Translations under genes and position numbers: made by a program
DNA from: Actinoplanes sp. NBC_00393
Lineage (GTDB): Bacteria > Actinomycetota > Actinomycetes > Mycobacteriales > Micromonosporaceae
Reading direction: 5' to 3'
Assembly (NCBI RefSeq): GCF_036053395.1
Contig: NZ_CP107942.1
Span: forward strand, 6,900,501-6,964,500
Length of the DNA: 64,000 nt
Shown: positions 39,800 through 53,723 of the stretch, piece after piece
How the letters are laid out: each line of letters opens with the position of its first letter
How positions within the stretch are numbered: position 1 is the stretch's first letter
The notes under the pieces: generated by a model
Told to the model about the DNA's origin: nothing
Seen by the model: the letters and a program-made list of their open reading frames with translations, nothing else
The model's database searches: none

Positions 39800-41008
39800 A
39801 TGAACGACTGGACGGCCTTCGGGCGCGTGGATGCCGACGGCACCGTGTACGTGAAGACCGCCGAGGGCGACCGGGTGGTCGGCTCCTGGCAGGCGGGCAC
39901 GCCGGAGGAAGGGCTGGCTCACTTCGCCCGGCGCTTCGACGACCTGGTCACCGAGGTCGACCTCGTCGAGGCTCGCCTCAAGTCCGGCGCGGCCGACGCC
40001 TCGCACTCGCTGAGCAGTGTCAAGCGGCTCCGCACCCAGCTCGACGAGGCCCACGTGGTGGGTGACATCGACGGTCTGGCGGCCCGGCTGGAGCGGCTCG
40101 CCGGTCTGGCCGAGGAGAAGGCCGGGGAGGCCCGGGCGGCCCGCGAGGTGGCCCGGACCGAGGCGCTCGCGCGCAAGACCGCCCTGGTCGAGGAGGCGGA
40201 GAAGATCGCCAACGAGGCGACCGGCTGGAAGTCGGCCGGCGACCGCCTCAAGGAGATCCTCGACGAGTGGAAGACCATCCGCGGCGTCGACAAGAAGACC
40301 GACGGCGAGCTGTGGAAGCGGTTCGCGGCCGCCCGGGACGGCTTCACCCGCCGCCGCGGCGCGCACTTCGCCACCCTCGACGGCCAGCGCAAGCAGGCCC
40401 AGACGGCCAAGGAAGAGCTGGTCAAGGAGGCGGAGAGCCTGTCCGACTCGACCGAGTGGTCGAGCACGGCGAACCGGCTCAAGGAGCTGATGACCGAGTG
40501 GAAGGCGGCGCCGCGCGCCGCCAAGGAGGCCGAGCAGCGCCTCTGGGAACGCTTCCGGGCCGCTCAGGACGCCTTCTTCACCCGGCGCAGCGAGGTCTTC
40601 TCCGCCCGCGACGCGGAGTACCAGGGGAACCTGGAGAAGAAGCAGGCCATCCTCGCCGAGATCGAGGCGCTCGACGTCGACGCCGACCCGCGGGGCGCGC
40701 AGAACAAGCTGCGTGACGCCCAGGCGGCCTGGCACGACGCCGGCCGGGTGCCGCGCGAGTCGGCCGCCTCGCTGGACCGCCGCTGGCGGAACGCCGAGGA
40801 GCGGATCCGGGTGGCGATGGACTCGGCGTGGCGCAAGACCAGCCCGCAGGACAACCCGCTGCTGCGCCAGATGCGCGAGCAGGTCGCCGAGGCCGAGCAG
40901 CGGCTGGCCCGGGCACAGGCCGCCGGGGACGCCCGCCGGGTCAAGGAGGCGGAGCAGGCGCTCGCCTCCAAGAAGCAGTTCCTGGCCCTGGCCGAACAGG
41001 CGAGCTGA
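39800..41008 (+). CDS. DUF349 domain protein
   Basis: A 402-residue, highly charged helical protein with at least three DUF349 repeats (roughly 140-210, 215-280 and 285-350). Typical elements are WKTIRGVDKKTDGELWKRF and WKAAPRAAKEAEQRLWERF. The family is widespread in actinobacteria and its function is not settled. It is monocistronic, followed by a strong hairpin terminator. Coiled-coil content suggests a scaffold role. Confidence 0.9.
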   Translation: MNDWTAFGRVDADGTVYVKTAEGDRVVGSWQAGTPEEGLAHFARRFDDLVTEVDLVEARLKSGAADASHSLSSVKRLRTQLDEAHVVGDIDGLAARLERLAGLAEEKAGEARAAREVARTEALARKTALVEEAEKIANEATGWKSAGDRLKEILDEWKTIRGVDKKTDGELWKRFAAARDGFTRRRGAHFATLDGQRKQAQTAKEELVKEAESLSDSTEWSSTANRLKELMTEWKAAPRAAKEAEQRLWERFRAAQDAFFTRRSEVFSARDAEYQGNLEKKQAILAEIEALDVDADPRGAQNKLRDAQAAWHDAGRVPRESAASLDRRWRNAEERIRVAMDSAWRKTSPQDNPLLRQMREQVAEAEQRLARAQAAGDARRVKEAEQALASKKQFLALAEQAS

Positions 41009-41027
41009 GTACAACACGTTCGGAGGA

Positions 41028-41060
41028 GCGGGGCGGCGGACCACTGGTCCGTCGCCCCGC
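41028..41060 (+). terminator. Hairpin terminator after the DUF349 gene
   Basis: GCGGGGCGGCGGAC and GTCCGTCGCCCCGC pair over 14 bp (one G-T wobble) with a CACTG loop, followed by TTCTTTCGTTCT. This is an intrinsic terminator with a T-rich tail. Confidence 0.85.
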
Positions 41061-41070
41061 TTCTTTCGTT

Positions 41071-41103
41071 CTCCATTGGATCTCAATTCGCTCTCCATTG
41101 GAG
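41071..41103. promoter_or_regulatory. Twin operator-like palindromes upstream of the SCO252x operon
   Basis: CTCCATTGGA occurs at 41071-41080 and again at 41093-41102. The second copy is the full palindrome CTCCA-T-TGGAG, while the first keeps TCCA-T-TGGA. The copies are 22 bases apart, about two helical turns. They lie between the DUF349 terminator and the SCO2524-family gene, in a 280-base region with no other gene. Confidence 0.45.
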
Positions 41104-41340
41104 GGTTGGATCGACTTCGCCCCGCTCGTGACGCTACTTTTGAGCGCCTGCGAGGTTGATAGCTTGACGGGTGCGACATCATGAGGGAGTCAGCGCGGAT
41201 CGGGCGGCCATCGACCGAACAGGATGTCCGTTGATCCGGCTTCGCGGCACGCCGGGCGGCCGAGGCCCCCTCGGCGCAGCCGGTGAGCCGCGGGCATCTG
41301 TCGCCCTCGGGCCCGTCTGCGGAGATGGTGGTGTGCACCG

Positions 41341-43263
41341 GTGAGGATCGAACCGCGACAGCATCTGCTGGAGACCTGGAAAGCGACCGTGGAGAGCTCC
41401 TGGCGCGACGGTCGATGGCACTGGGGTGGCCGCGACGGATCCAACTCCATCAGTGACGCCGAGCAGCTGCTCTGCATCCTGCTGCCGGCGACCCAGGTCA
41501 CGCCGTTCGCGCTGGACCGGCCGAACGCCACCGCCGACGCGATGGTCCGGGCGCTGCGGCCGCTCGGCGACGAGACGACCATCCCGATCAACCTGGTCCG
41601 CATCGCGACGGAGTATTTCACTCGGTACATCGACGAGAAGGACGGCAACCGCCCGATCTTCTCCGGTGGGAGCTACTACAAGACCCACAAGGGCGCCGAG
41701 CTGGCCAAGGAGCAGCTGGGCCGGGACATCGTGGACTCGTTCGCGATCTCGGTGACGCTGTCGCTGGCGACCATCGGTTTCGTCCGCATCTTCCGGCAGT
41801 CCGTCACCCGGCAGGACCTGCGCCGCGAGCTGCGAGAGCTGGAGACTCTGGCCAGCACCCGGCTCACCGCGGCCATGGTCGGTCTGCTGCGCAGCTTCTC
41901 CACGCACGTCTTCGACGCGGACGAGGAAGCCGGGCAGATCCTGCTCCAGACCATCAACAAGAGCCAGGCGCCGTCCAAGGCCGTGGTCAGCCAGTTCCGG
42001 ACGGCGTTGCAGGAGACCATCGCGTCGTTCGGCGAGGTCCTGATCGGATCGGGCCAGACCCAGCGGCTGGTGGGCGCCAACACGCTCTTCGAGTGCGGCT
42101 GGTCGTGGGGCATCGTCCGGGAAGCCCCCGAGGTCATGCTGGAATACAAGCCGGCCAACCGGGGCAGCGAGCCGGGCACCGGGACCGAGGCGCCGGTCGG
42201 CATCCCGGCCGACGAGACCGAGGACATCGGCCCCCAGCCGAACGGCATCGCCGAGAACAAGCCGTACCTCTACTTCACCGTGGTGGCGGTCGACGCCATC
42301 GAGGACCTCTTCTCCGAACGGACCCGTGTCCTGGGTCTGCTCAACGAGGAGCAGCAGCGCCTGTCCCGTGCGCTGCAGCTGCGCTGGGATCTCACGCTCA
42401 CCTACTGGGCGACCGTGGCGACGTTCAGCGGTGGTCCCACCTGGCCGCTCGAGGACCCACCCTGGCAGACCACCGACGGCCTGCGCAGTGAGTACTACAG
42501 CCTTCTGGTGACCTCGATCGTCGTGAAGGACCTGGTCCGGCGGCGCGGCGCGGACACCAGGCTCGCCCGGATCGGCGCCGTCCTCTCCGACCTGTCGAAC
42601 GAGGGCCGGGTGACCCGGCAGTACCGCAAGGGTGACTCCGGGCTGCTGCTGCACAACCCCGGCCTGGAAGTCGTCCTGGAGGGCAGCGACACCGACTCAC
42701 CGGACAAGACGAAGTCGATCTGGTACGTCGAGGAGTTCGCCTCCCTGCTGCTCCAGCGCGCCGTCGCCATCGCGGGCCTGCTGAACGACGTGGAGGAGCG
42801 CGCACGCCTGCTCCGCCTGGCGGACGGCGTCTGGGACCACCTGGCCCGCCGCCGGCTGACCGGCAAGAACCACCGGAGACTGTGGGACCAGCCGTCCAAC
42901 GTGTTCGCCGAGCTGCCCGAGCACAAAGAGCCCTCGTGGTATTACACCGAGCGGGTGGTGGCCGGCCTCGTCAGCACGGCGAACCTGCTCAGCGAGGAGC
43001 CGATCGTCAACGACCGGCTCGTGATCCACGCCTTCGACCTGCTGTTCGAGGCCGAGCATCTGTACGACATGGAGCTCATGCGGGGCACCACCGACGCCAG
43101 CCTCGGCGTCGTGGACGTCCTCACCGAGATCCGGTCCAAGCTCGAACGGGCGCGGTCCATCGCCCGTACCCGGCCGGGAGCGGCGACCGCCCTGGTGAAC
43201 TGGATCCTGTTGGAACTCGACGGCCTCGACGCCGTCCGCGGCAACGAAAGCACGGCGATCTGA
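41341..43263 (+). CDS. SCO2524-family protein
   Basis: A 640-residue protein I recognise as the actinobacterial family named after S. coelicolor SCO2524, from its N-terminus (PRQHLLETWKA, WHWGGRDGSNSISDAEQLLC). It is soluble, helix-rich and without a known domain. GTG 41341 lacks a strong ribosome site. Its TGA shares a base with the next start (TGATG). Members co-occur with SCO2521-, SCO2522- and SCO2523-family genes. I know of no assigned function; a large scaffold or sensor component is a guess. Confidence 0.8.
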   Translation: MRIEPRQHLLETWKATVESSWRDGRWHWGGRDGSNSISDAEQLLCILLPATQVTPFALDRPNATADAMVRALRPLGDETTIPINLVRIATEYFTRYIDEKDGNRPIFSGGSYYKTHKGAELAKEQLGRDIVDSFAISVTLSLATIGFVRIFRQSVTRQDLRRELRELETLASTRLTAAMVGLLRSFSTHVFDADEEAGQILLQTINKSQAPSKAVVSQFRTALQETIASFGEVLIGSGQTQRLVGANTLFECGWSWGIVREAPEVMLEYKPANRGSEPGTGTEAPVGIPADETEDIGPQPNGIAENKPYLYFTVVAVDAIEDLFSERTRVLGLLNEEQQRLSRALQLRWDLTLTYWATVATFSGGPTWPLEDPPWQTTDGLRSEYYSLLVTSIVVKDLVRRRGADTRLARIGAVLSDLSNEGRVTRQYRKGDSGLLLHNPGLEVVLEGSDTDSPDKTKSIWYVEEFASLLLQRAVAIAGLLNDVEERARLLRLADGVWDHLARRRLTGKNHRRLWDQPSNVFAELPEHKEPSWYYTERVVAGLVSTANLLSEEPIVNDRLVIHAFDLLFEAEHLYDMELMRGTTDASLGVVDVLTEIRSKLERARSIARTRPGAATALVNWILLELDGLDAVRGNESTAI

Positions 43264-44180
43264 TGTTCGTCTTCGCCGCGTCCGACAAGGGCGGCACCGG
43301 CCGGTCGGTGACCAGCAGCAACCTGCTGTATCGCAGCGCGCTGCAGGGCAACGACGTCTGCTACCTGGACTTCGACTTCGGCTCCCCGACAGCGGGCGCC
43401 ATCTTCGGCATTGAGAAGGCCGAGAACGGTACGCACAGCGGGTCCGGCCTCTACCGCTTCCTGCTGCAGGAGGTGGAGGAACCGGAGCGCATCGACATCT
43501 GGACGTCGACCGACCGGCGCGCGATCAGCGACGGCCAGGCGAACACCGGCCGGCTGGTCCTGCTTCCGGGTGACGTCGGCAGCGGCGACTTCCCGAAGCG
43601 GACCGACCTCGAGGACCAGTGCCTCAACCTGTTCCTGCGGCTCAACGAGGAGTTCAGCCTCTGCATGGTCGATCTCAGCGCCGGGCGGAACCTGGCCGTC
43701 GAGATGGCCCTGAAGGTGACCGCCAGGCCGGAGATGCGCAACATCATGAGCCGCTGGCTGGTCTTCCACCGGTGGACCCGGCAGCACGTGGTGGCGGCCG
43801 GCGGTCTCGTCAACGGTCCCCGCGGCCTGCTCGCCAACGCCGAGGCGGCGGGCCACGACCGGCAGCAGTTCGCCAACAATCTTCGATACGTCCGGACCGC
43901 GGTGATCGACCCGACCCCGTCGACACACAGCGGCCTCACCGCCAAGCAGGACGTTTGGCTCACCGAGTGCAATCAGCGACTCACTCGGCTGGCGGGACAG
44001 CACCAAGTCGGCAAAAATCTGGTATTAGGGACCGTACCGCTCGATCCCATGTTGCAATGGCAGGAACAGTTGATCACTGACAAGGACGTGGTGGCCGGCG
44101 TCGCGAAGCAGGAGACGCGGAACGCCTTCGATTCGTTGGCGAGGCGCCTCGTCGACGACTCTGCCTGGGAGACCCTATGA
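43263..44180 (+). CDS. SCO2523-family variant P-loop protein
   Basis: A 305-residue ParA/MinD-like NTPase relative. The N-terminal FAASDKGGTGRSVTSSN is a deviant Walker A in which the usual GK(T/S) Lys is Arg (KGGTGRS, residues 9-15). A Walker-like YLDFDFGSPT and a later LCMVDLSAGRN strand follow. The altered loop may bind but not hydrolyse nucleotide, or may differ in specificity (inference). It is coupled at both ends to its neighbours by overlapping stop/start codons; the longer open frame upstream lies within the SCO2524-family gene. Confidence 0.82.
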   Translation: MFVFAASDKGGTGRSVTSSNLLYRSALQGNDVCYLDFDFGSPTAGAIFGIEKAENGTHSGSGLYRFLLQEVEEPERIDIWTSTDRRAISDGQANTGRLVLLPGDVGSGDFPKRTDLEDQCLNLFLRLNEEFSLCMVDLSAGRNLAVEMALKVTARPEMRNIMSRWLVFHRWTRQHVVAAGGLVNGPRGLLANAEAAGHDRQQFANNLRYVRTAVIDPTPSTHSGLTAKQDVWLTECNQRLTRLAGQHQVGKNLVLGTVPLDPMLQWQEQLITDKDVVAGVAKQETRNAFDSLARRLVDDSAWETL

Positions 44181-45154
44181 CGGTAGCCCCGCACCGCCCC
44201 CGTTCGGTCTACCGGGAGACGGCGGCCGAGCCAACCGCTCCCTCTGTGGGACTCTCACACGTCTCACTCGAGCTGGGCCACCTCTACATGGAGGATCTGC
44301 AGGCGGCGGAGAGCGAGAGCCGGCTCGCCGAGCACTTTCGGAGCGTCTCGCACTGGCTCGAGGCCATCAAGTCGATGGGTCGCTGGGGCATCAAGTCACC
44401 ACGGGTCAGCACCTGCTTTCTGATCGACGACTACTTCAGCCGCCTCGACGAACCGGCAGTGATCATCAAGAAGGTGGTCGACGCCGCTGCCAAGAGCGGG
44501 GTGATCATCGACTACATCGCCCGCGAGTCGAGTTGCGCCGAGTTCGGGACGACCAAGCTGGCGCAGCAGGTCTTCAACTCGATCGTGCCGGAGGCCCTGC
44601 CCGGCGCCAACGGGAGCCGGCCCCCGCTCAAGGAGAGCGGCTGGCTGGCGAACGGCCGCCGGTCCTTCGACCCCGCGGTCGCGCCGGCCATGGCGGGCGA
44701 GACGTGGCGCAGCCCCGAGCAGACCGCCGCCAATCGGCACTCGATCTTCATGGACGTGCAGATCCGGGACAACCTGTGGTCGTGCTCCTTCCTCGCCGCG
44801 GTGTGGCAGCTCCTGCGCCTGGGCCTGCTCCGGCCGGAGGAGAAGCAGCTCACCAAGCCGGTGAGGCTGGCCGGTGACTATCCGACCGACTGGTCCGATC
44901 TGCCCCCGGTGATCAAGCTGACCAACACCAACAACCCGTTCTGCGCATACCGGAGTTTCTCCATCCTCCCGACCCGCTTCATGGAGGTCGAGATGGCTGC
45001 GCGCACGGTTCTGCACCAGGTCGGGCTCGATCCGCTGATCATGGAAGACCTCAACGACCGGGCCGCCGACGAGGGGATCAAGCTGCCGCCCGAGATCCTC
45101 GACCGCATCGATTACGCCTTCATCAACGACTGGTCTCCCGCCACCGGCCGCTGA
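44177..45154 (+). CDS. SCO2522-family protein
   Basis: A 325-residue protein matching the SCO2522 family by position and by segments such as SHVSLELGHLYMEDL and RVSTCFLIDDYF. No catalytic motif or membrane segment is visible. It overlaps the SCO2523-family stop by four bases (ATGA) and is third in the operon. Its last 32 bases overlap the 3' end of the convergent NACHT gene. The function is unknown. Confidence 0.8.
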   Translation: MTVAPHRPRSVYRETAAEPTAPSVGLSHVSLELGHLYMEDLQAAESESRLAEHFRSVSHWLEAIKSMGRWGIKSPRVSTCFLIDDYFSRLDEPAVIIKKVVDAAAKSGVIIDYIARESSCAEFGTTKLAQQVFNSIVPEALPGANGSRPPLKESGWLANGRRSFDPAVAPAMAGETWRSPEQTAANRHSIFMDVQIRDNLWSCSFLAAVWQLLRLGLLRPEEKQLTKPVRLAGDYPTDWSDLPPVIKLTNTNNPFCAYRSFSILPTRFMEVEMAARTVLHQVGLDPLIMEDLNDRAADEGIKLPPEILDRIDYAFINDWSPATGR

Positions 45155-48100
45155 GGCGCAACAGGTTGGCCGCGGTGCTGCTGACGGCGAAGTCGTCGTC
45201 ATGGGTGCAGTAGGACAGGACCTCCTGCACGTCGTCGAGGTGCGCGACCGGCTCCAGGGTCTCCACCGCTGCGCGCCGCACCTCGTGCTGCTCGGCGGCC
45301 CGGGCCAGCACCAGCACCTCCGTGCGGACCGCGTCGTCGGTGAGCCAGCCGGCCAGCGCCCGGATCACCACCTGCCGGATCGCCGGTTCGCTGTCGGCGA
45401 GCCGGGCCAGCAGGTCGTCCCGCAGCTCCTCCTGTGGGAGCGCCGCGGCCGCGCCCGCCGCCGCGGCGACCACGGCCGGGTCTGCGTCGTACCGGACCCG
45501 GTCGCGGAAGACCTCGGCGGCGGTCTTCGGGTCGGCGCCGGTGCCGAGCAGTTCCACCGCGACCGCGCGGATCTCCGGTTTCGGGTCTCTGGTGGCCCGG
45601 TCCGCGATCACGTTCCACAACGGGGCGGCGTTGGCGGTGTCGCCCACCGCAGCGGCCGCCGCGGCGGCGAAGACCTCACCCACGCTGTCGTGGGAGAGCC
45701 GGTCCAGCAGCACCGCGGCGAGGTCGACCCCGGACGGGCAGAACCCGATCAGCACCTGGAGCGCGGCCAGCCGGATCTGCGGATGATGCCCGTCGCCGGT
45801 GAGCAGCACCAGCTCGCCGCCGGACGGCGGGTCCAGGGGCCGGCCGCAGAGACCGCGCAGGGCGGCCGCGCGGATCTCGGTGTCCCGATCGTTCACCGCG
45901 GCCCGGATCAGCGCCTGTGTCGCGGACTCGCTGCGATCCGCGGCGAGCAGTTCGACGGCGGCGCGCCGGACCGGCGGGGTCGGGTCCTTACCGGCGAGGC
46001 GGATCAGCAGATCCTGGCGGGCCGGAGTCTCGGGCAGATCCGTCAGCCCCTGCACCGCGGCCAGCCGAACAGACGGCTCGTCGTCGCCCGCCGCGGCCGT
46101 CAGGGTGGCCTCCAGGCGGGGGTAGGAGCGGTAGGAGCCGCTCAGCGTACGCACCACGGCGCGCCGCATCACCTCGTCCGGCTCGGTGACCAGGCGGGTC
46201 ACCAGCGCCTCCCATGACCGGTCCCGCGGCCGTTGACCACGGGCGGCCAGGGCGACTGCCGCGTCCCGGACCACGAGCCCGTCCACGTCCTCGCGGATCC
46301 GCTCGATCAGGGCGCCTTCCGGGCCGCTGCGGCCGAGCAGCCCGACCGCGGTGCGGCGGACCCCGGCGGACTCACCGGTACGCAAACGGGTCAGCAGCAG
46401 CTCGCGAGCCTCCCCGTCGGTGTCGGCCCGGGGCAGCAGCACCGCGGCGGCCGCTTCCACGACCTCCGGCGCCGGGTCGCGGCGGCAGGCGTCCATCAGC
46501 GCCTCCCTCACCCGGCCGGAGAGCTGCCCGCTGCGGGCCAGGATCCGGACCGCCCCGGCGCGCACGGCTGGATGATGGTCGTCGCGCCGGGAGGTCAGCA
46601 GGATCTCCTCGACCTCCGGCTCACCGCTCAGGCGCTCACCGAGAATCTGTACGGCCGCCAGCCGAACCGTCGAGAATGCGTCCTCACCCGCCGCCTCGAA
46701 GAGCACGTCCCGCGCCTCGGTGTAGACCGCGACCAGGGGCGCCAGCGCCTGAACCGCGGCGAGGCGGACGACCGCCGGCCCGGTGTGTGCCACCCTCAGC
46801 AGCGGCTCCAGCGCGGCCCGGCCCTGCTCGGTGGCCTCGTGCCGGACCGCCTGCTGCGCCAGCTCGCCCAGGCCGGCCACCGCGGCGCAGACGATCCGGA
46901 CGTCGGCGTCGGCGAGCTGGGACTCGAATTTCGCCTTCAGCCGCTCCCCCGGCTGCGCGAGGATCGCCGCGAGCCGGGCCGCCGAGACCGCGGCCGGGTT
47001 GCCGACGATCCGCACGCCCTCCCGTAGGTACCACCCCAGGTAGGTCTCGCCGTCCGGCCAGCTCGAACCGACCGCCTCGACGGCCGGGATCAGCTCGTCG
47101 ACCAGCAGGTCCGCGTACGCCGAACCGGGCTCAGACGGTGTCGCCGCGCAGTGTTCCAGAACCAGGCCGACCTGCCGCAACACCAGACCGGCGGCATGCC
47201 CGGCGCCCCCGATCGGATGAATCCCGGCCAGGCACTGCACGGCCAGCGCCACGTTCCACGGTGGGTCGGCCGGCGGATCCCGGTGCCAGTCCGGGTTGAT
47301 CTCGGTGACGAGCAGCTCGACGAGATCGGCCGCCAGCGGCACCCGCAGCTGGCCGGCGACCAGCCGCAGCGTCTCCCGCCAGCCCGGGTCCGCCCACCGC
47401 TCCCGGAACAGGGTCCGGATCTCCTCGAACGAGGACTCGTGCCGCTTGAAGCGCTCGACGATCGCCCACGCGCAGTAGAACTCCAAAAAGGTCCGGTGCA
47501 CGAAGCGGTAGTCGGCGTGACCGGCGCGGCCCAGCACGAAGCTGCGCGTCTGCAACTGCTCGATGGCCTGCTTGGCGGACGCCTTCGCCTCCGCCCAGTT
47601 CGACCCCTGCTGCTCCAGGTGCCGGGCGAAGATCTGCCGGAGCTGGTCGCCGCCGACGTCGTCGCCGTGCGGTCCGAGCCGGCCGGACATCATGTCGAAG
47701 GCCAGCGAGCGGAGCAGCTTGTGCTTCTCCTCGGCGTCGAGGAACTGCGAGGTGGTCGGGGTGTCCACCAGCCGGCTGTCGTCCCAGCTGTCCACCAATG
47801 TCTCGGCGGCCTTGCGGTAGAGCCGCCACCGCTGTTTCGGCAGCATGTGGTGCCGCCCGAGCACCGCGAGGATGCTGAGCAGCATCGGGTTTCCGGCCAG
47901 CTCGGTGAGCTCCGGCGAGCGGCGGATGGTGCTGAGAACCACCTCGCGCCGGGCCGCGGCGTCGGTCTCGGCCACCGCCTGGAACCAGCGGTTCATGAAC
48001 TCTGCGGTCTGTTCCGGCGAGAACCGTTGCAGCGTGTGATGGGCGAAGCCGGCAGCGGCCAGAGCGGCCCGGTTGTACTCCGCGGGGCGGGTGGTCACCA

Positions 48101-49250
48101 CGACCCGGGCGTTCGCGAAACTCTCGGCGAAAGCCGCGATCTGTCCGGCCGTCTCCTCGCGGACACGCCGGTCGATGATCTCGTCGAGACCGTCGAAGAC
48201 CACCACCGCCGGGTCACCGCGGGCCAGATGCAGGTGCAGGCCGTCGGGCTCCTCCTGGTAGCCGTCGGAGGCCGCGCGATACGCCAGGTACTCCCGGAAG
48301 TTGCGGCACTGGCCGGCGGCGACGGCCCCCGCGTACGACCGGAGCTCGATCAGGATCGGCAGGTGATCGGCGAGGGTGGCCAGGCGCTCGTCGCCGTGCG
48401 CGCGGGCCAGAGCGAGCGCGAGGTGGCGGACGACCGCCGACTTGCCGGCACCGGCGTCGCCGATCAGCACCAGACGGTGCTGGTCGCGCCCGCAGATCAC
48501 GTCGAAGACCGGCTGCCCGGGCCAGGACATCGGCAGCGCCGACCGGTCGAGGCGCTCCGAGTCGGCGCTCCCCCGCGGCGGACGGTCCAGCTCGGGGGGT
48601 TGTTCGGCACGCGCGCGCGGCTCCACGAACACGTCGAGCAACTGGGTGCCGAGGTACTCCTGCGGGTTCAGGTTGAGCAGGTCGAGCCCGCCGTACTGCT
48701 GGCGGAGGCGCTCGAAGTAGTGCTCGGTCGCCGCCGGGCTCAGGCCGGGCAGCACCGGGCCGGCCGAGGCCGGACCCTCCTCCTGGGCCTGCTCCTCCAG
48801 CAGTTTGTGGACCGCGCCGTAGACCAGCAGCGCGAGCTGACCGGGCGAGCTGAAGAAGTTGCACAGGTGCTCGGTCTGCAGCACCTTGCGCAGCGCGTCG
48901 ACCTGCGCCGATCGCGGGCCCCGGTCGACGAACTTGACCGGCCACGGCGCCTCCGGGTCGAGCAGGAAGATGAGGCAGTCCTTGCCGCGGGCGACGGCGT
49001 GCTCGTACTCCAGGTGGGTGAAGGACTTCGACTGTTTGGGCGGCGTGTCCCCGTAGTTCCACGCGAAGATGCCGATGTAGATGTCGCACGACTCCACGTC
49101 GGCGAGGCAGCGCGCCAAGGGGGTACGGCTACCGGCGAAATACTTCTCCATCGTCCGGAACGACAGGCCGAAGAGCTCGAGCGCCTCACGGACCGCCTGG
49201 CGGCACTCCTTCAGATCCTCGAACGTGGCGGAGATGTAGGCCTCGGTCAA
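45123..49250 (-). CDS. DUF4062-NACHT-HEAT STAND protein
   Basis: A 1375-residue STAND NTPase. Residues 3-100 are a DUF4062 domain (AYISATFEDLKECRQAV, EYEHAVARGKDCLIF). The NACHT domain has Walker A GDAGAGKS (264-271), Walker B VVFDGLDEI (350-358) and VVVTTRP. After a helical region, HEAT repeats of about 30 residues fill roughly 680-1375, forming a large sensor surface. Bacterial NACHT proteins include antiphage sensors, so a surveillance role is plausible. TTG 49250 follows AGGGGAGAAG. It is convergent with the SCO2522-family gene. Confidence 0.88.
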   Translation of the reverse strand: MTEAYISATFEDLKECRQAVREALELFGLSFRTMEKYFAGSRTPLARCLADVESCDIYIGIFAWNYGDTPPKQSKSFTHLEYEHAVARGKDCLIFLLDPEAPWPVKFVDRGPRSAQVDALRKVLQTEHLCNFFSSPGQLALLVYGAVHKLLEEQAQEEGPASAGPVLPGLSPAATEHYFERLRQQYGGLDLLNLNPQEYLGTQLLDVFVEPRARAEQPPELDRPPRGSADSERLDRSALPMSWPGQPVFDVICGRDQHRLVLIGDAGAGKSAVVRHLALALARAHGDERLATLADHLPILIELRSYAGAVAAGQCRNFREYLAYRAASDGYQEEPDGLHLHLARGDPAVVVFDGLDEIIDRRVREETAGQIAAFAESFANARVVVTTRPAEYNRAALAAAGFAHHTLQRFSPEQTAEFMNRWFQAVAETDAAARREVVLSTIRRSPELTELAGNPMLLSILAVLGRHHMLPKQRWRLYRKAAETLVDSWDDSRLVDTPTTSQFLDAEEKHKLLRSLAFDMMSGRLGPHGDDVGGDQLRQIFARHLEQQGSNWAEAKASAKQAIEQLQTRSFVLGRAGHADYRFVHRTFLEFYCAWAIVERFKRHESSFEEIRTLFRERWADPGWRETLRLVAGQLRVPLAADLVELLVTEINPDWHRDPPADPPWNVALAVQCLAGIHPIGGAGHAAGLVLRQVGLVLEHCAATPSEPGSAYADLLVDELIPAVEAVGSSWPDGETYLGWYLREGVRIVGNPAAVSAARLAAILAQPGERLKAKFESQLADADVRIVCAAVAGLGELAQQAVRHEATEQGRAALEPLLRVAHTGPAVVRLAAVQALAPLVAVYTEARDVLFEAAGEDAFSTVRLAAVQILGERLSGEPEVEEILLTSRRDDHHPAVRAGAVRILARSGQLSGRVREALMDACRRDPAPEVVEAAAAVLLPRADTDGEARELLLTRLRTGESAGVRRTAVGLLGRSGPEGALIERIREDVDGLVVRDAAVALAARGQRPRDRSWEALVTRLVTEPDEVMRRAVVRTLSGSYRSYPRLEATLTAAAGDDEPSVRLAAVQGLTDLPETPARQDLLIRLAGKDPTPPVRRAAVELLAADRSESATQALIRAAVNDRDTEIRAAALRGLCGRPLDPPSGGELVLLTGDGHHPQIRLAALQVLIGFCPSGVDLAAVLLDRLSHDSVGEVFAAAAAAAVGDTANAAPLWNVIADRATRDPKPEIRAVAVELLGTGADPKTAAEVFRDRVRYDADPAVVAAAAGAAAALPQEELRDDLLARLADSEPAIRQVVIRALAGWLTDDAVRTEVLVLARAAEQHEVRRAAVETLEPVAHLDDVQEVLSYCTHDDDFAVSSTAANLLRLSGRWRETSR

Positions 49251-49353
49251 GCGCTTCTCCCCTCGCCGGAGTGCTCGCCACAGCCGGAGTGGGCAGCGGC
49301 AGAGCCGTCACGGCGATCACTCGGCGGCGCTCCCCGGCAGCGCTGCGTAGCGG

Positions 49354-50319
49354 TCAATATATCCGGGTCAGGCAAGCCTCCACCATGGACGCGACATCGC
49401 GTGCGCATCCCCAGGAGACGCTCACTCCACCGCCGCCGTGACCGTAGTTGTGCACCACGAGCTGATCGCCCAGGCCGGCCACCTCCAGCCGGATCCGGTC
49501 ACGCACCGGCCGGTGTCCCTCCCGGACCGCGACCACCGGGGCGTTCCGCAGCCGCGGCTCGATCCGCGCGCACCGGGCCCGGATCCGCTGCACCGCCGTG
49601 GCCTGCGGAATCGCCGCCCAGTCCGGCGACTCGAGAGTGCTGCCCAGCACCACCGTGTCACGGTGCGGGATGATGTAGGTGAGTTCCGGACCCGTGCCCT
49701 CCTCGGCGAAGAAGGTGTCGATCCCCGGGTTGCCGACCACGACCACCACACCGCGGACCGGAATCAGCTCCGGATCCGCGGCCAGTTCGCGGGCGCCGGA
49801 TCCGCTGCAATTGACGACGACCGGGGCCAGGTCTCTCAGTTCGTGCAGCGAGACGATCTCCCGCCGCTCCACCACCACGTCCGCGGCGCGCAGCTCGGCG
49901 AGCAGGTACTCCGAGTAGACCGGCATGTCCACCACCGCTGTGGTGTACCGCCAGGCGCTGCGATAACCCGGCCATCCGCTCTCGTCACAGCGCTGCAGGT
50001 CGCCGGTGAAGTCGAGCCAGGGATGCGGAACGGCGAAGTCCCGCGACACCTCGATGCCACGCACCATCGTCACCCCGGCGAGGCGCTTGGCCGCGAGCTC
50101 ACGGAAGGCGGCAAGGCTCTGCCTCGCCCACCGCGCGGCATCCGGATGGCCGACCAGAAAGGGACCCCACATCGCTCCCGCCGCGCAGGAGCTGGTGTGC
50201 GGTGGCAGCCGATCCGCCACGACGCGCACCGACAACCCTCGCCGGGCCAGGCACAGGGCGCTCGTCAAACCGCAGACGCCCGCACCGACCACGATGGCAT
50301 CGACGTTCGTGACAATCAC
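49354..50319 (-). CDS. D-amino-acid-oxidase-like FAD-dependent oxidoreductase
   Basis: A 321-residue flavoenzyme. The N-terminal FAD fold has GAGVCG (12-17). The C-terminal DAAO signature is present (VVHNYGHGGGGVSVSWGCA), and HRPVRD holds the Arg expected to bind the substrate carboxylate. It should oxidise D-amino acids to oxo acids with H2O2. GTG 50319 is the start. It lies 103 bases downstream-side of the NACHT gene on the same strand and is divergent from the SCO2521-family gene. Whether it belongs to the neighbouring system is unknown. Confidence 0.88.
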   Translation of the reverse strand: MIVTNVDAIVVGAGVCGLTSALCLARRGLSVRVVADRLPPHTSSCAAGAMWGPFLVGHPDAARWARQSLAAFRELAAKRLAGVTMVRGIEVSRDFAVPHPWLDFTGDLQRCDESGWPGYRSAWRYTTAVVDMPVYSEYLLAELRAADVVVERREIVSLHELRDLAPVVVNCSGSGARELAADPELIPVRGVVVVVGNPGIDTFFAEEGTGPELTYIIPHRDTVVLGSTLESPDWAAIPQATAVQRIRARCARIEPRLRNAPVVAVREGHRPVRDRIRLEVAGLGDQLVVHNYGHGGGGVSVSWGCARDVASMVEACLTRIY

Positions 50320-50502
50320 ACCCCGACACTAATGGCTTACTCCGCGGCGTCGCCACGCGCCGAAATTCCGGCGACCGGCCACACCTGAGACGAGCTGGGG
50401 TGATGAGCCTTTATCCTTCCGGCGCGAGCTAGGCACGCCGGTGTTTGCCCGGCCTCGATCCGGAGCGTCACGATGGACCCAGGAAAAGTCTGCGGAGGAC
50501 CC

Positions 50503-51465
50503 ATGTTGGCTTTCGGCGAGGTGCAGACCGGCCTTCTGCAGAACTCCGCCGCGCTCTCCCGGCGGGGCACCGAGCAGCTCATCGCCACCGCGGTGGACGA
50601 GCGGATCCGTACGGTGGAGCGCCCGATCGGGCACACGTCGGCGCAGGCCCGGCAGGAGGGTGTGGACTGTCTGCTGCCGGCCGTCTCGGGCCGGCAGACG
50701 CGGGGCGTCGGCACGGTGCTCACCCGGGTCGCGGTGGTCGGTGGGCACGTGATTCAGGGCTCCGCGTACGCGCAGGTCGCGCCGGCCCGCAACACAGTCC
50801 GGCTGCCGTGGTCGCACTATCTGGCCAACCCCGGCCAACTGGAGGCGATCGGCAAACTGGACTCGAAGGACGTCGCGCTCGGTGTGCTCAGCGGCGTACG
50901 GACTGGGAAGACGCTGGAGCTGGGCGCGTTCACCACGCGGGTGGTGGACCTGGTGCAACGGTCCCGGTTCGTCGACCACGCGCCTCCACTGCGCACGCCA
51001 CGCGTACGGCTGAGGTGGACCGCCGTCCTGGACAAGAGCCTCGACGAGCCGGACAGCATCTTCACGCTCGTCTCCGACGAGTTGCGCACGATCGAACTCC
51101 GGGTGCCCACGCCGGACCTGAAGGCCGTGGTGGCGCTCTGCGAGGACCTCGCGCTGCACGACTGGCTGCTGACCACAGTGCTGTCCGTCCTGGACGCGAC
51201 GCTCGCCCACGACCAGAGCCGGGCCGAACGGGTGATCCGGTTGCAGCCGCTCCTGGAGCATCTGCTGCACCTCTGGATGCCGGGCGCCCACGTGCCCGAG
51301 CAGCTCCTGCCGGTCTGGACGGCGCTGGACCAGCGCCCAGGGTTCACCCGGCAGTGGGAAGCCGCGGTGGCCCGCATCCGCGACCAGGTGACGGTCGAGA
51401 CCCTCGACCTGTTGCAGGCGGCCGACGGCCGGGTCGCGCGGCCGGTCAGCCCACCGGGACGCTGA
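50503..51465 (+). CDS. SCO2521-family protein
   Basis: A protein of about 320 residues that I recognise as the SCO2521 family from its N-terminus (MLAFGEVQTGLLQNSAAL) and the segment LPWSHYLANPGQLEAIGK. ATG 50503 follows GGAGG closely and matches the conserved start; an ATG 10 codons upstream is possible. It is soluble, with no known domain. It lies about 5 kb from its three partner families, separated by the NACHT and oxidase genes. Its 3' end overlaps the convergent SLOG gene by 20 bases. The function is unknown. Confidence 0.8.
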   Translation: MLAFGEVQTGLLQNSAALSRRGTEQLIATAVDERIRTVERPIGHTSAQARQEGVDCLLPAVSGRQTRGVGTVLTRVAVVGGHVIQGSAYAQVAPARNTVRLPWSHYLANPGQLEAIGKLDSKDVALGVLSGVRTGKTLELGAFTTRVVDLVQRSRFVDHAPPLRTPRVRLRWTAVLDKSLDEPDSIFTLVSDELRTIELRVPTPDLKAVVALCEDLALHDWLLTTVLSVLDATLAHDQSRAERVIRLQPLLEHLLHLWMPGAHVPEQLLPVWTALDQRPGFTRQWEAAVARIRDQVTVETLDLLQAADGRVARPVSPPGR

Positions 51466-51913
51466 CCAGCGGCATCCGCCGGGCGCCCGCGGGCCAGACC
51501 TGCACGACGGTCTTGCCCTGGGCACGGGCCCACTCGACCGTCTCGGCGGTGCCGCCCCGCCCGCCGGCCGGGTCGCCGTCCCAGACCGCGATCAGGATGT
51601 CGCTGCGGTCGACGACCTCGCGGCTTGCCGCTTCATACGCCGCCTCGGGCGGACCGGGCACCTCGAGCCGGGAGATCCGCCCGGCCTGGTGCAGCAGCCG
51701 GGCCGGCGCCGTGGCGGCACCGGGCAGCACCACGTCGAAGGTGCCGTGGCAGGCCCGGATCGCGCGGGCGAAGAGCTGGTCGGCGCCGTCGGCCAGACAG
51801 GTGATGCCGTGCACCCGCGGGAACCTCGCCAGATAGCGCACGAGCTCCCGGTAGATCAGCCGGCTGGACGCCGGGGTCAGGCGGATGTGCCCGGTGACTC
51901 CGATCGTCGTCAT
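51446..51913 (-). CDS. SLOG-domain nucleotide-binding protein
   Basis: A 155-residue single Rossmann-like domain of the SLOG superfamily. GVTGHIRLT near the N-terminus, CLADGADQLFA (residues about 39-49) and the GGTAETVEWA segment are typical of these predicted nucleotide-derivative sensors. It follows the TrkA-N/RyR gene by 16 bases on the same strand, forming a two-gene operon. SLOG and RyR domains have been linked in computational surveys of nucleotide-based conflict systems. The ligand is unknown. Confidence 0.75.
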   Translation of the reverse strand: MTTIGVTGHIRLTPASSRLIYRELVRYLARFPRVHGITCLADGADQLFARAIRACHGTFDVVLPGAATAPARLLHQAGRISRLEVPGPPEAAYEAASREVVDRSDILIAVWDGDPAGGRGGTAETVEWARAQGKTVVQVWPAGARRMPLVSVPVG

Positions 51914-51929
51914 CCCAGTGCTCCCGCCG

Positions 51930-53723
51930 TCATCGGGCCGGATCGAAGACCCGGTCCACTCCAGTGTCCGTCAACCGCACCACCCGGAACCCGGCGTCGG
52001 CCAGGATGTGCGGAATCTCCAGCACCGCGGACCGGCATTTGGCACGTCCCTCCGGCCCCAGGTCGTCCCAGTCCACCAGATCCGGCGACCGACGGCGAGC
52101 CCTGTCCCGCTCCGTGCCATGGATCCACCCGTCGGCCCGGGCCGCCTGCACCCATCGCTCCTGCTCGCGCTGGGCGAGCACCTCGACCTCGACCGGCGTG
52201 AACCGGAAGTCGTCGGAAGTACCGTCGGCGGGCACCACGGCGCAGCCGACCATGTGCAGCTTGACCCCGATGTCGTCGGCCTGCCGGCGGTTCGACCTGC
52301 GCAGCTCCTCCTCCAGGTCCACCCACGGGCGCATCGCGGGAGTGCTGCCCAGCTTCTCGCCGCGGCGCAGGCAGCCCTCGACGAAACGCTCGTGTATCAA
52401 CCGGCCCAGCCGCTCGGACAGGTCGTCCGCGATCAGGGCCGGATCGCAGCCGGCGGCCACCGCGGAGAAGAGCTTGACCCGGCCGTCGATCGGGTCGAGC
52501 AGCGGCTGCTCCCGGTGGTTGCGGCTGAACGCCTCGGTGATCGCGGCGAGCGCGTCCACCACCACGACGATGTCGCCGCTGACCCGGCTCCAGAGCCGGT
52601 GCTCGCTCAGGGCCAGCTCCAGCCCCTGCCGGTCGTCGGAGTAACACACGAAGGCCCGGTCGTAGCGGCCCAGGTCGCCCTCCTCCAGCAACTCGTGCAG
52701 GGAGGATTCGTACGGCACCGGGCGGCAGCCGTCCAGGATCACCTCGTGCCGGTGGGTGAGCTCGTCGAGGACCCGGCCGGCGTCGGTGGCCACGAAGTCG
52801 ACGTCCACCCGCTGCTCCGGCTCGGCCCGGCGCAGCCGCCAGTGCCGGGCGATCTCCAGGAGCAGCACCTGCGCCAGCGACGAGTCACCGGCGACCAGCA
52901 GCCGTGGGACCTCGCCCGGGCGGACCGGGAGCGGCTGCTGGTCGAGCAGGACGTGGACCGCGAGCTGGTCGAGGTGGAAGAAGTCCAGGCGCTGTCCCGG
53001 CGTGTGCGGCACGCCCAGCCGCCGGGCCTGCAGGGTCAGCGCCCACTCCGGCTCGTGGATCTGTGCGTAGAGCGCGATGTCGTTGCGCGCGGCGGCCACC
53101 CGGGCGGCGGCCGCGGCGATCGCCAGGTTGGCGGCGCTGGTGTCCGCGCAGGCGTAGAGCACGGCGGCCCGGGCGACACCGGCGCCGCGCAGCACGTCCG
53201 GGTCGCGGCCGTCGCCCTGCACGCCGAGCAGGCTCCGGCGCCGCAGTTCCAGAGGACCGATCGGCTGGGTACGCACGACGACGACACGACGGCCGCTCAG
53301 ATGCAGCCGGTGCGCGAGGGTCCGCGCGACCGAGGTGTCCCCGCAGACCACCACGTGCCCGCTCGAACGCCGGGCCCGCAGCCGGCGCAACTCCGAGGAG
53401 AGCAGCAACCGGGCCGCCTCGACGACCGCGTACAGCGTCACGATCGGCGCCGCGAACCGGGCGATCTGCAGGGCCAGCGGGAAGTCGGTGCCACCCTCCA
53501 GCGGATCGGCGCCGAGGACGAAGAGCTGCAGCGTGCCGTACATGAGGTTGAGCGGATGACGGGCGGCCGGCTCGGCTTTCGTCGCCAGGTACTGATCCAA
53601 CCCGATGAAGCCGAGTATCAGCGCCAGGATGCCGATCAGCGCGAAGACCGCGCGGGTGGCGGTCACCGCGGTCTGGCTCTGCTCGTCCCGGAAGGACAAC
53701 GGCGTTCGGGGGAAGTTGGCCAT
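51930..53723 (-). CDS. Membrane TrkA-N protein with C-terminal RyR domains
   Basis: A 597-residue protein. Two N-terminal transmembrane helices (about 22-42 and 82-108) flank a short loop (YGTLQLFVLGADP) in the place of a channel pore loop, which is degenerate. Two Rossmann/TrkA-N-like domains follow (from 123, HVVVCGDTSVARTL; from 274, LLVAGDSSLAQVL). The C-terminus has RyR-type repeats (about 435-500 and 508-585, including QERWVQAARADGW). It looks like a ligand-gated channel or membrane sensor. The SLOG gene downstream may supply or detect the ligand (inference). Confidence 0.82.
   Translation of the reverse strand: MANFPRTPLSFRDEQSQTAVTATRAVFALIGILALILGFIGLDQYLATKAEPAARHPLNLMYGTLQLFVLGADPLEGGTDFPLALQIARFAAPIVTLYAVVEAARLLLSSELRRLRARRSSGHVVVCGDTSVARTLAHRLHLSGRRVVVVRTQPIGPLELRRRSLLGVQGDGRDPDVLRGAGVARAAVLYACADTSAANLAIAAAAARVAAARNDIALYAQIHEPEWALTLQARRLGVPHTPGQRLDFFHLDQLAVHVLLDQQPLPVRPGEVPRLLVAGDSSLAQVLLLEIARHWRLRRAEPEQRVDVDFVATDAGRVLDELTHRHEVILDGCRPVPYESSLHELLEEGDLGRYDRAFVCYSDDRQGLELALSEHRLWSRVSGDIVVVVDALAAITEAFSRNHREQPLLDPIDGRVKLFSAVAAGCDPALIADDLSERLGRLIHERFVEGCLRRGEKLGSTPAMRPWVDLEEELRRSNRRQADDIGVKLHMVGCAVVPADGTSDDFRFTPVEVEVLAQREQERWVQAARADGWIHGTERDRARRRSPDLVDWDDLGPEGRAKCRSAVLEIPHILADAGFRVVRLTDTGVDRVFDPAR

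Follow-up and report, generated by a model that had tools for sequence, protein, structure and literature searches.

A replaceable SCO2521-SCO2524 gene cassette with a DUF4062-NACHT-HEAT protein in Actinoplanes, a candidate immune or cell-death system

DUF4062 is described, in the available part of a preprint (PMC13174449, May 2026), as a TIR-like family of nicotinamide adenine dinucleotide (NAD) hydrolases (NADases) with an antiphage member, Swarozyc, in which defence needs residue E97. The same text reports that the human proteins TEP1, NWD1, NWD2 and NPHP3 join DUF4062 to a NACHT domain. The locus analysed here lies in a stretch of 64,000 nucleotides from Actinoplanes sp. NBC_00393 (contig NZ_CP107942.1, positions 6,900,501 to 6,964,500), hereafter the window, which sits in an 11.43-Mb chromosome. 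It is a cassette (window positions 41341-51465) of SCO2524, SCO2523 and SCO2522 family genes, a gene for a DUF4062-NACHT-HEAT protein, a D-amino-acid-oxidase-like gene and a SCO2521 family gene. The cassette shares with Swarozyc (KpSwz) and TEP1 a DUF4062 domain with a conserved Glu region, and TEP1 also has the DUF4062-NACHT pairing. As far as the preprint text describes it, bacterial Swarozyc has another auxiliary domain and is triggered by the portal, whereas the cassette combines NACHT and HEAT regions with a conserved multi-gene core.

The bNACHT proteins, as described in the source text available, resemble the cassette protein in having a NACHT nucleoside triphosphatase (NTPase) followed by C-terminal repeats, and the match to the EruA profile is weak (33.6 bits, cut-off 1000). 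The cassette protein differs in its N-terminal NADase-like domain and its steady partner genes, and it has no PADLOC match of note. The nucleoside triphosphate (NTP)-dependent conflict systems of Kaur et al. 2020 (PMC7159879) share STAND-type ATPases (signal transduction ATPases with numerous domains), variant MinD/ParA-like domains and a home in multicellular actinobacteria. The accessible portion of that paper places inactive MinD/ParA-like domains, also beside AP-ATPases, in actinobacterial conflict and peptide systems. However, no vWA-MoxR or VMAP component was recognised in the cassette, and DUF4062 has 0 occurrences in that portion. NCBIfam holds families for SCO2521, SCO2522, SCO2523, SCO2524 and SCO2525, four of which score above cut-off in the window. 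These families are named only, and the alternating modules reported below are an added observation. A literature search found no paper naming SCO2523, SCO2520 or DUF6879, and no description of an alternation between NACHT and membrane proteins in the SCO252x families; three papers mention SCO2521 or SCO2525. The SCO252x proteins recur in actinobacteria yet have no assigned function, and a link to a nucleotide-binding leucine-rich repeat (NLR)-like protein gives a concrete hypothesis. The cassette may represent an undescribed system of bacterial immunity or cell death. At one chromosomal site its NLR-like protein, which has a predicted NADase domain, gives way to a membrane protein.

Comparison of related chromosomes shows that the block from 41341 to 51465 is a replaceable unit. 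Its left edge (41009..41340) follows a DUF349 gene (39800-41008), and a SLOG-like gene lies at its right. In loci L172-L175 (genomes G137, G186, G236 and G204) the DUF349 and SLOG genes face each other 89-155 bp apart, the cassette is absent, and the outer neighbours match those of the window. The same distance is 10.4-10.7 kb in the window and in L009, L010 and L012. In L145 (G167) these flanks are 7.7 kb apart and the cassette has a membrane protein in place of the NACHT protein. The site retains only the oxidase gene in L183 (1.1 kb), and in L182 it holds pieces of 2524 and 2523 (3.8 kb). The window's genome also has a second, decayed SCO252x cassette at about 7341400-7343300 on the minus strand (G000:C1; L189:7425-9297), with 2521, 2522 and a piece of 2523 but no 2524. 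The empty site, the remnants and the second cassette form the gain and loss pattern of accessory genes. A second argS gene (7336722-7338290) lies about 3 kb from the decayed cassette.

The NACHT and oxidase genes are linked to the core. A search of 300 genomes from the window's family with residues 1-650 of the NACHT protein gave 55 hits of at least 400 bits. With the SCO2523 places taken from the matches listed, a distance of at most 10 kb separates 48/55 NACHT homologues from SCO2523; another 5 are far from it, and the remaining 2 belong to genomes without a listed place. Of the far hits, one is interrupted by a stop and the other four belong to considerably longer open reading frames (1802-2162 residues). 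For the oxidase (hits of at least 200 bits, among the matches listed) the counts are 84/125 within 10 kb, 20 far and 21 without a listed place. The expectation by chance is about 0.2%, taken as a 20-kb stretch of a 9-Mb genome. The gene neighbourhoods of 156 loci were also mapped (the window, 35 others and 120 from further genomes, 114 of the latter from the same family). SCO2523 was called in 152 of these, and 140 have at least 8 kb on both sides. Near SCO2523 in the 140 loci are 2524 (140), 2522 (131), 2521 (132), 2525 (57), the oxidase (76), SLOG (15) and TrkA-N/RyR (15). The original prediction would have read the association as chance if SCO252x loci elsewhere never carried NACHT, SLOG or RyR genes. 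The neighbourhood comparison that it proposed runs against this, finding NACHT in 40/140 loci, inside or beside the core, in at least two layouts and many genera.

The module that accompanies the core alternates. It is DUF4062-NACHT-HEAT in 40 of the 140 loci, a membrane protein in 79, a phosphoesterase-NACHT-pentapeptide-WD40 protein in 4 and none of these in 17. NACHT-HEAT and the membrane protein occur together in 0/140. Some species are included twice where collections overlap. After removal at 95% identity, the 106 remaining loci divide into 26, 63, 4 and 13, with both together in 0. The maps come from a simple caller based on G+C content at third codon positions with a minimum of 80 aa, so the loci with none of the modules may hide missed genes. 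The membrane protein has a DUF6879-like C-terminus, and 93/94 members carry one or two hydrophobic segments towards their N-terminal end; by gene order it would occupy the SCO2520 position. Trees were built from 2524 and 2523, the first with 92 rows and the second with 64, after 5 long-branch rows were removed and 23 thinned. The first tree showed long branches, and the second, without the longest ones, agrees with it. The NACHT cassettes form one well-supported clade, within which L145 and a few loci lacking both modules also fall. Both trees need two changes between NACHT and the membrane protein. The second change is L145, whose core clusters, at support 100 in both trees, with the window's set; its cassette lies at the same site. 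On these trees the alternation comes down to a single main switch, maintained for a long time, plus one clear exchange.

Other proteins were seen with the core. A STAND protein of about 1600-1660 aa, with a phosphoesterase-like start, a NACHT motif, pentapeptide repeats and WD40, occurs in L069, L076, L085, L096 and L112, from three genera; its gene lies beside SCO2524 and points away from it. Some loci counted as having none of the modules, L056 (7645-8544) and L060 (11364-12155), carry other membrane proteins in the slot. These are 264-300 aa long, have one or two hydrophobic segments in their N-terminal part, and gave no Pfam family of note. In L147 (5995-8901, minus strand), the locus on the longest branch of the core tree, the genes after 2523 encode proteins of 155 aa and 968 aa, the latter with a Peptidase_M48 domain; this is possibly a further module.

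The DUF4062-NACHT-HEAT gene (45123..49250, minus strand) encodes a STAND protein of 1375 aa that is a predicted TIR-like NADase executioner (Pfam DUF4062 8.5e-21, NACHT 2.3e-11, HEAT_2 3.8e-41). The DUF4062 domain covers residues about 1-110 (48921..49250, minus strand; PF13271, 74 bits, cut-off 24.7). The NACHT NTPase domain covers residues 259-425 (47976..48476, minus strand; PF05729, 44 bits, cut-off 26.7), and seven HEAT_2 stretches make up the C-terminal repeats. All 41 aligned cassette NACHT proteins keep E81, in an S-x-T-x-x-E-Y motif, and all 41 keep the Walker A residues G264, G267, G269 and K270 and the Walker B D353-E357 (DGLDE). The PDB chain of KpSwz aligns weakly (E 0.038), with an Ala opposite E81, and the KpSwz structure was solved as an E97A mutant according to the text of PMC13174449. 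Judged by this weak alignment, E81 is probably the catalytic Glu that corresponds to E97 of KpSwz. An earlier proposal that the STAND protein is the sensor and the channel protein the effector is recast here: the NACHT protein itself is predicted to carry a NADase effector, and the channel-like protein is a neighbour.

The core genes have the identities first assigned to them, as have the DUF4062-NACHT-HEAT, oxidase and TrkA-N/RyR genes, and all four SCO252x profiles score above cut-off. SCO2524 (41341..43263, plus strand; NF040567, 859 bits, cut-off 300) encodes 640 aa with a predicted (alpha/alpha)6 toroid as in AGE-type epimerases. SCO2522 (44177..45154, plus strand; NF040566, 375 bits, cut-off 200) encodes 325 aa with a predicted class I aminoacyl-tRNA-synthetase-like (HUP) catalytic fold. 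Both assignments are at the level of fold and come from a VIA-align second look at the models; Foldseek gave no match at E 0.001 for either model, and a PDB sequence search gave none for SCO2522 or SCO2521 and a best E of 0.034 for SCO2524. The SCO2522 model match covers residues 25-325, on the catalytic part of synthetases. By this span the protein has no anticodon-binding domain and is therefore not classed as a synthetase. Its E-x-G-H-x-Y motif is present in 139/142 members, and KMSKS is missing from the consensus. SCO2523 (43263..44180, plus strand; NF040564, 459 bits, cut-off 200) is a variant P-loop protein of MinD/ParA-like type (PDB match 3kb1, E 3.1e-6). Its Walker A motif reads KGGTGRS in 141/152 members. 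Eight of the other 11 were inspected, and these comprise three KGG[TA]GR[ST] variants and five with a called start past the motif. The deviant KGGxGK of MinD/ParA ATPases occurs in 0/152, with Arg at the second Walker A Lys. The NTP-dependent core that had been proposed is plausible, but this motif departs from the MinD/ParA type. SCO2521 is at 50473..51465 on the plus strand (NF040565, 378 bits, cut-off 150). The modelled folds of the core suggest small-molecule chemistry.

The SCO2521-SCO2524 set recurs in order across genera, more often than chance would give. Three or four of the core genes occur in order in Streptomyces, Microbispora, Planotetraspora, Frankia, Dactylosporangium and Actinoplanes; 2521 was not seen in Frankia. 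SCO2523 is above cut-off in 154/300 sampled genomes of the window's family and is also found in Streptomyces. The nearest relatives of the window's SCO2523 are from Actinoplanes (A. aureus, 91% identity). A 3.2-kb contig labelled Candidatus Melainabacteria (L033) encodes SCO2524 and SCO2523 (54% identity for SCO2523) and is probably mis-binned actinobacterial sequence.

The first three core genes overlap at their stops and starts (TGATG at 43261 and ATGA at 44177), as had been noticed. The NACHT, oxidase, SLOG and RyR genes (minus strand) run opposite to the SCO252x genes (plus strand) and hence do not form one operon with them. SCO2522 and the NACHT gene converge with a 32 bp overlap. The D-amino-acid-oxidase-like gene (49354..50319, minus strand; Pfam DAO 8.6e-37) encodes a flavin adenine dinucleotide (FAD) enzyme of 321 aa. 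It lies upstream of the NACHT gene in the same direction, with a 103 bp gap, and the two are apparently one transcription unit. The oxidase gene and SCO2521 diverge, 153 bp apart, and no gap within the cassette is larger. SCO2521 and the SLOG gene converge with a 20 bp overlap. Neither SCO2525 nor the membrane protein found in many mapped relatives is present in the window's cassette. No tRNA genes were found in 36000-58000. The D-amino-acid oxidase signature H-N-Y-G-x-G-G (a PROSITE pattern) is present in 74/84 members of the oxidase family. In 16 loci of Microbispora, Planotetraspora and Streptosporangium the membrane protein has a different DAO-family oxidase of about 400 aa (cluster c5) as a near neighbour, which shows the signature in 0/16.

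From the observed gene content, linkage, alternation at one site and conserved motifs, and from the predicted folds, we infer enzyme activities, a signal, NAD depletion and an immune role. The cassette may be a modular conflict system with a NAD-depleting NLR-like executioner in this lineage, probably acting by abortive infection or regulated cell death. The constant core would consist of SCO2524 (toroid, enzyme-like), SCO2523 (variant NTPase, as a switch or scaffold), SCO2522, which is expected to use adenosine triphosphate (ATP), and SCO2521, often joined by the oxidase and the SCO2525 methyltransferase. The variable module would be the DUF4062-NACHT-HEAT protein in the window and a membrane/DUF6879 or phosphoesterase-NACHT-WD40 protein elsewhere. 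The proposed role of the core is to make, modify or guard a small molecule derived from an amino acid, or else a protein complex. A disturbance, for example by a phage, would cause the HEAT region to release the NACHT domain, followed by oligomerisation and activation of DUF4062. Active DUF4062 would then hydrolyse NAD+ and the cell would stop. If true, this would be a further immune or cell-death system, one with an enzymatic core, in a group of antibiotic-producing bacteria. The NADase-executioner reading is kept at moderate confidence because the activity is predicted from sequence.

Several results weigh against this reading. No relatives of SCO2523 were matched in plasmids, phages or viral contigs, and the cassette site adjoins MiaA and DUF349 genes. 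A PADLOC scan of 10 window genes recognised no known defence gene, and gave no convincing match for the core or the NACHT protein. At position 79, two before E81, 40 proteins have a residue; it is Glu in 29 and His in 11, the window's protein being one of the latter. In the text of PMC13174449, TEP1 is the only one of the four human proteins that hydrolysed NAD+, so the domain pair is no guarantee of activity. The 140 loci are related and two switches suffice, so they are not 140 independent events. The synthetase and toroid assignments of the core are at fold level only. A profile comparison of SCO2522 with MshC (hhalign) found nothing (probability 0.5%, controls 0.1-0.4%).

The strongest of the alternatives is that the core is a physiological pathway, in growth and differentiation or in amino-acid or cell-envelope metabolism, and that the NACHT or membrane protein is an attached regulator or guard rather than a phage-defence executioner. 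We consider this possible but somewhat unlikely. The available text on the HupS regulon of S. coelicolor (PMC11472566) states that the sco2521-sco2526 operon seems to be controlled by HupS and that SCO2525 is needed for normal growth. SCO2525 is called morphogenetic in the part of PMC6344877 available, and its mutagenesis is mentioned in that of PMC3017869. These reports fit a physiological role and weigh most among the arguments against pure defence. The enzyme-like core fits such a role, as does the lack of mobile-element relatives, which extends to SCO2522 (no match in plasmids). The patchy presence of SCO2523 in the family, the empty and decayed sites, the module swap and the conserved DUF4062 and NACHT motifs speak against it. 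Even if the conflict reading is wrong, NLR-like proteins would here be paired with a growth-linked pathway, which is unusual.

An extension of the conflict-cassette reading, which we regard as speculative, sees the SCO2521-SCO2524 core as the half that generates the signal in an immune system of a new class. The synthetase-like enzyme, assisted by the toroid protein, the NTPase, the oxidase and the methyltransferase, would make an amino-acid-based signal or an 'all-is-well' molecule. This would be read by interchangeable executioners (NADase-NACHT-HEAT, phosphoesterase-NACHT-WD40 or the membrane protein), in parallel with and unrelated to CBASS and Thoeris.

It is improbable that the core is instead a small pathway to a natural product or modified peptide in which the NACHT protein serves as a self-sensing or killing device. 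The synthetase-like protein, the methyltransferase and the D-amino-acid oxidase form a suitable enzyme set, and an AP-ATPase with an inactive MinD/ParA-like domain is linked to peptide-processing systems of actinobacteria in the portion of Kaur et al. 2020 available. Against this, the maps, which cover genes of 80 aa or more, show no constant gene for an exporter, a regulator or a precursor; gaps in the window's cassette are at most 153 bp.

Chance, or hitch-hiking in shared insertion sites, is a very unlikely explanation of the association as a whole, as the linkage counts refute chance for both the NACHT and the oxidase genes and NACHT accompanies the core in differing layouts of many genera, while hitch-hiking is accepted for the SLOG and RyR genes in the window. 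The original prediction had grouped all of these genes together, which stands for NACHT and the oxidase only. SLOG and TrkA-N/RyR were considered as members of the cassette and rejected, since in Actinoplanes they flank the site with or without it. The SLOG-like gene (51446..51913, minus strand) does follow SCO2521 and adjoins the DUF349 gene in genomes without the cassette, but its identity as SLOG is weak (YAcAr E 0.019, 15.2 bits, cut-off 28.2). The TrkA_N and RyR gene (51930..53723, minus strand), assigned by Pfam, encodes a protein that is probably membrane-anchored, judging by its hydrophobic segments. By the SCO2523 places listed, only 16/88 TrkA-N/RyR matches are near SCO2523, against 49 that are far from it and 23 in genomes with no place listed (88 of 90 matches, the second pieces of two split genes being left out). 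The 16 are split evenly, 8 each, between genomes of the window's genus and genomes of genus g4. Three of these g4 loci were mapped (L155, L156 and L158), and in them NACHT, TrkA-N/RyR and SLOG follow in order on one strand, unlike in the window, so the TrkA-N/RyR-SLOG pair meets the cassette in two settings. This pair and the cassette also occur beside the same genes (k75-k77) in different genera (L177, L178 and L184; L050 and L056). Shared insertion sites therefore explain the proximity at least as well as function does, and the k75-k77 neighbourhood is possibly a shared insertion hotspot.

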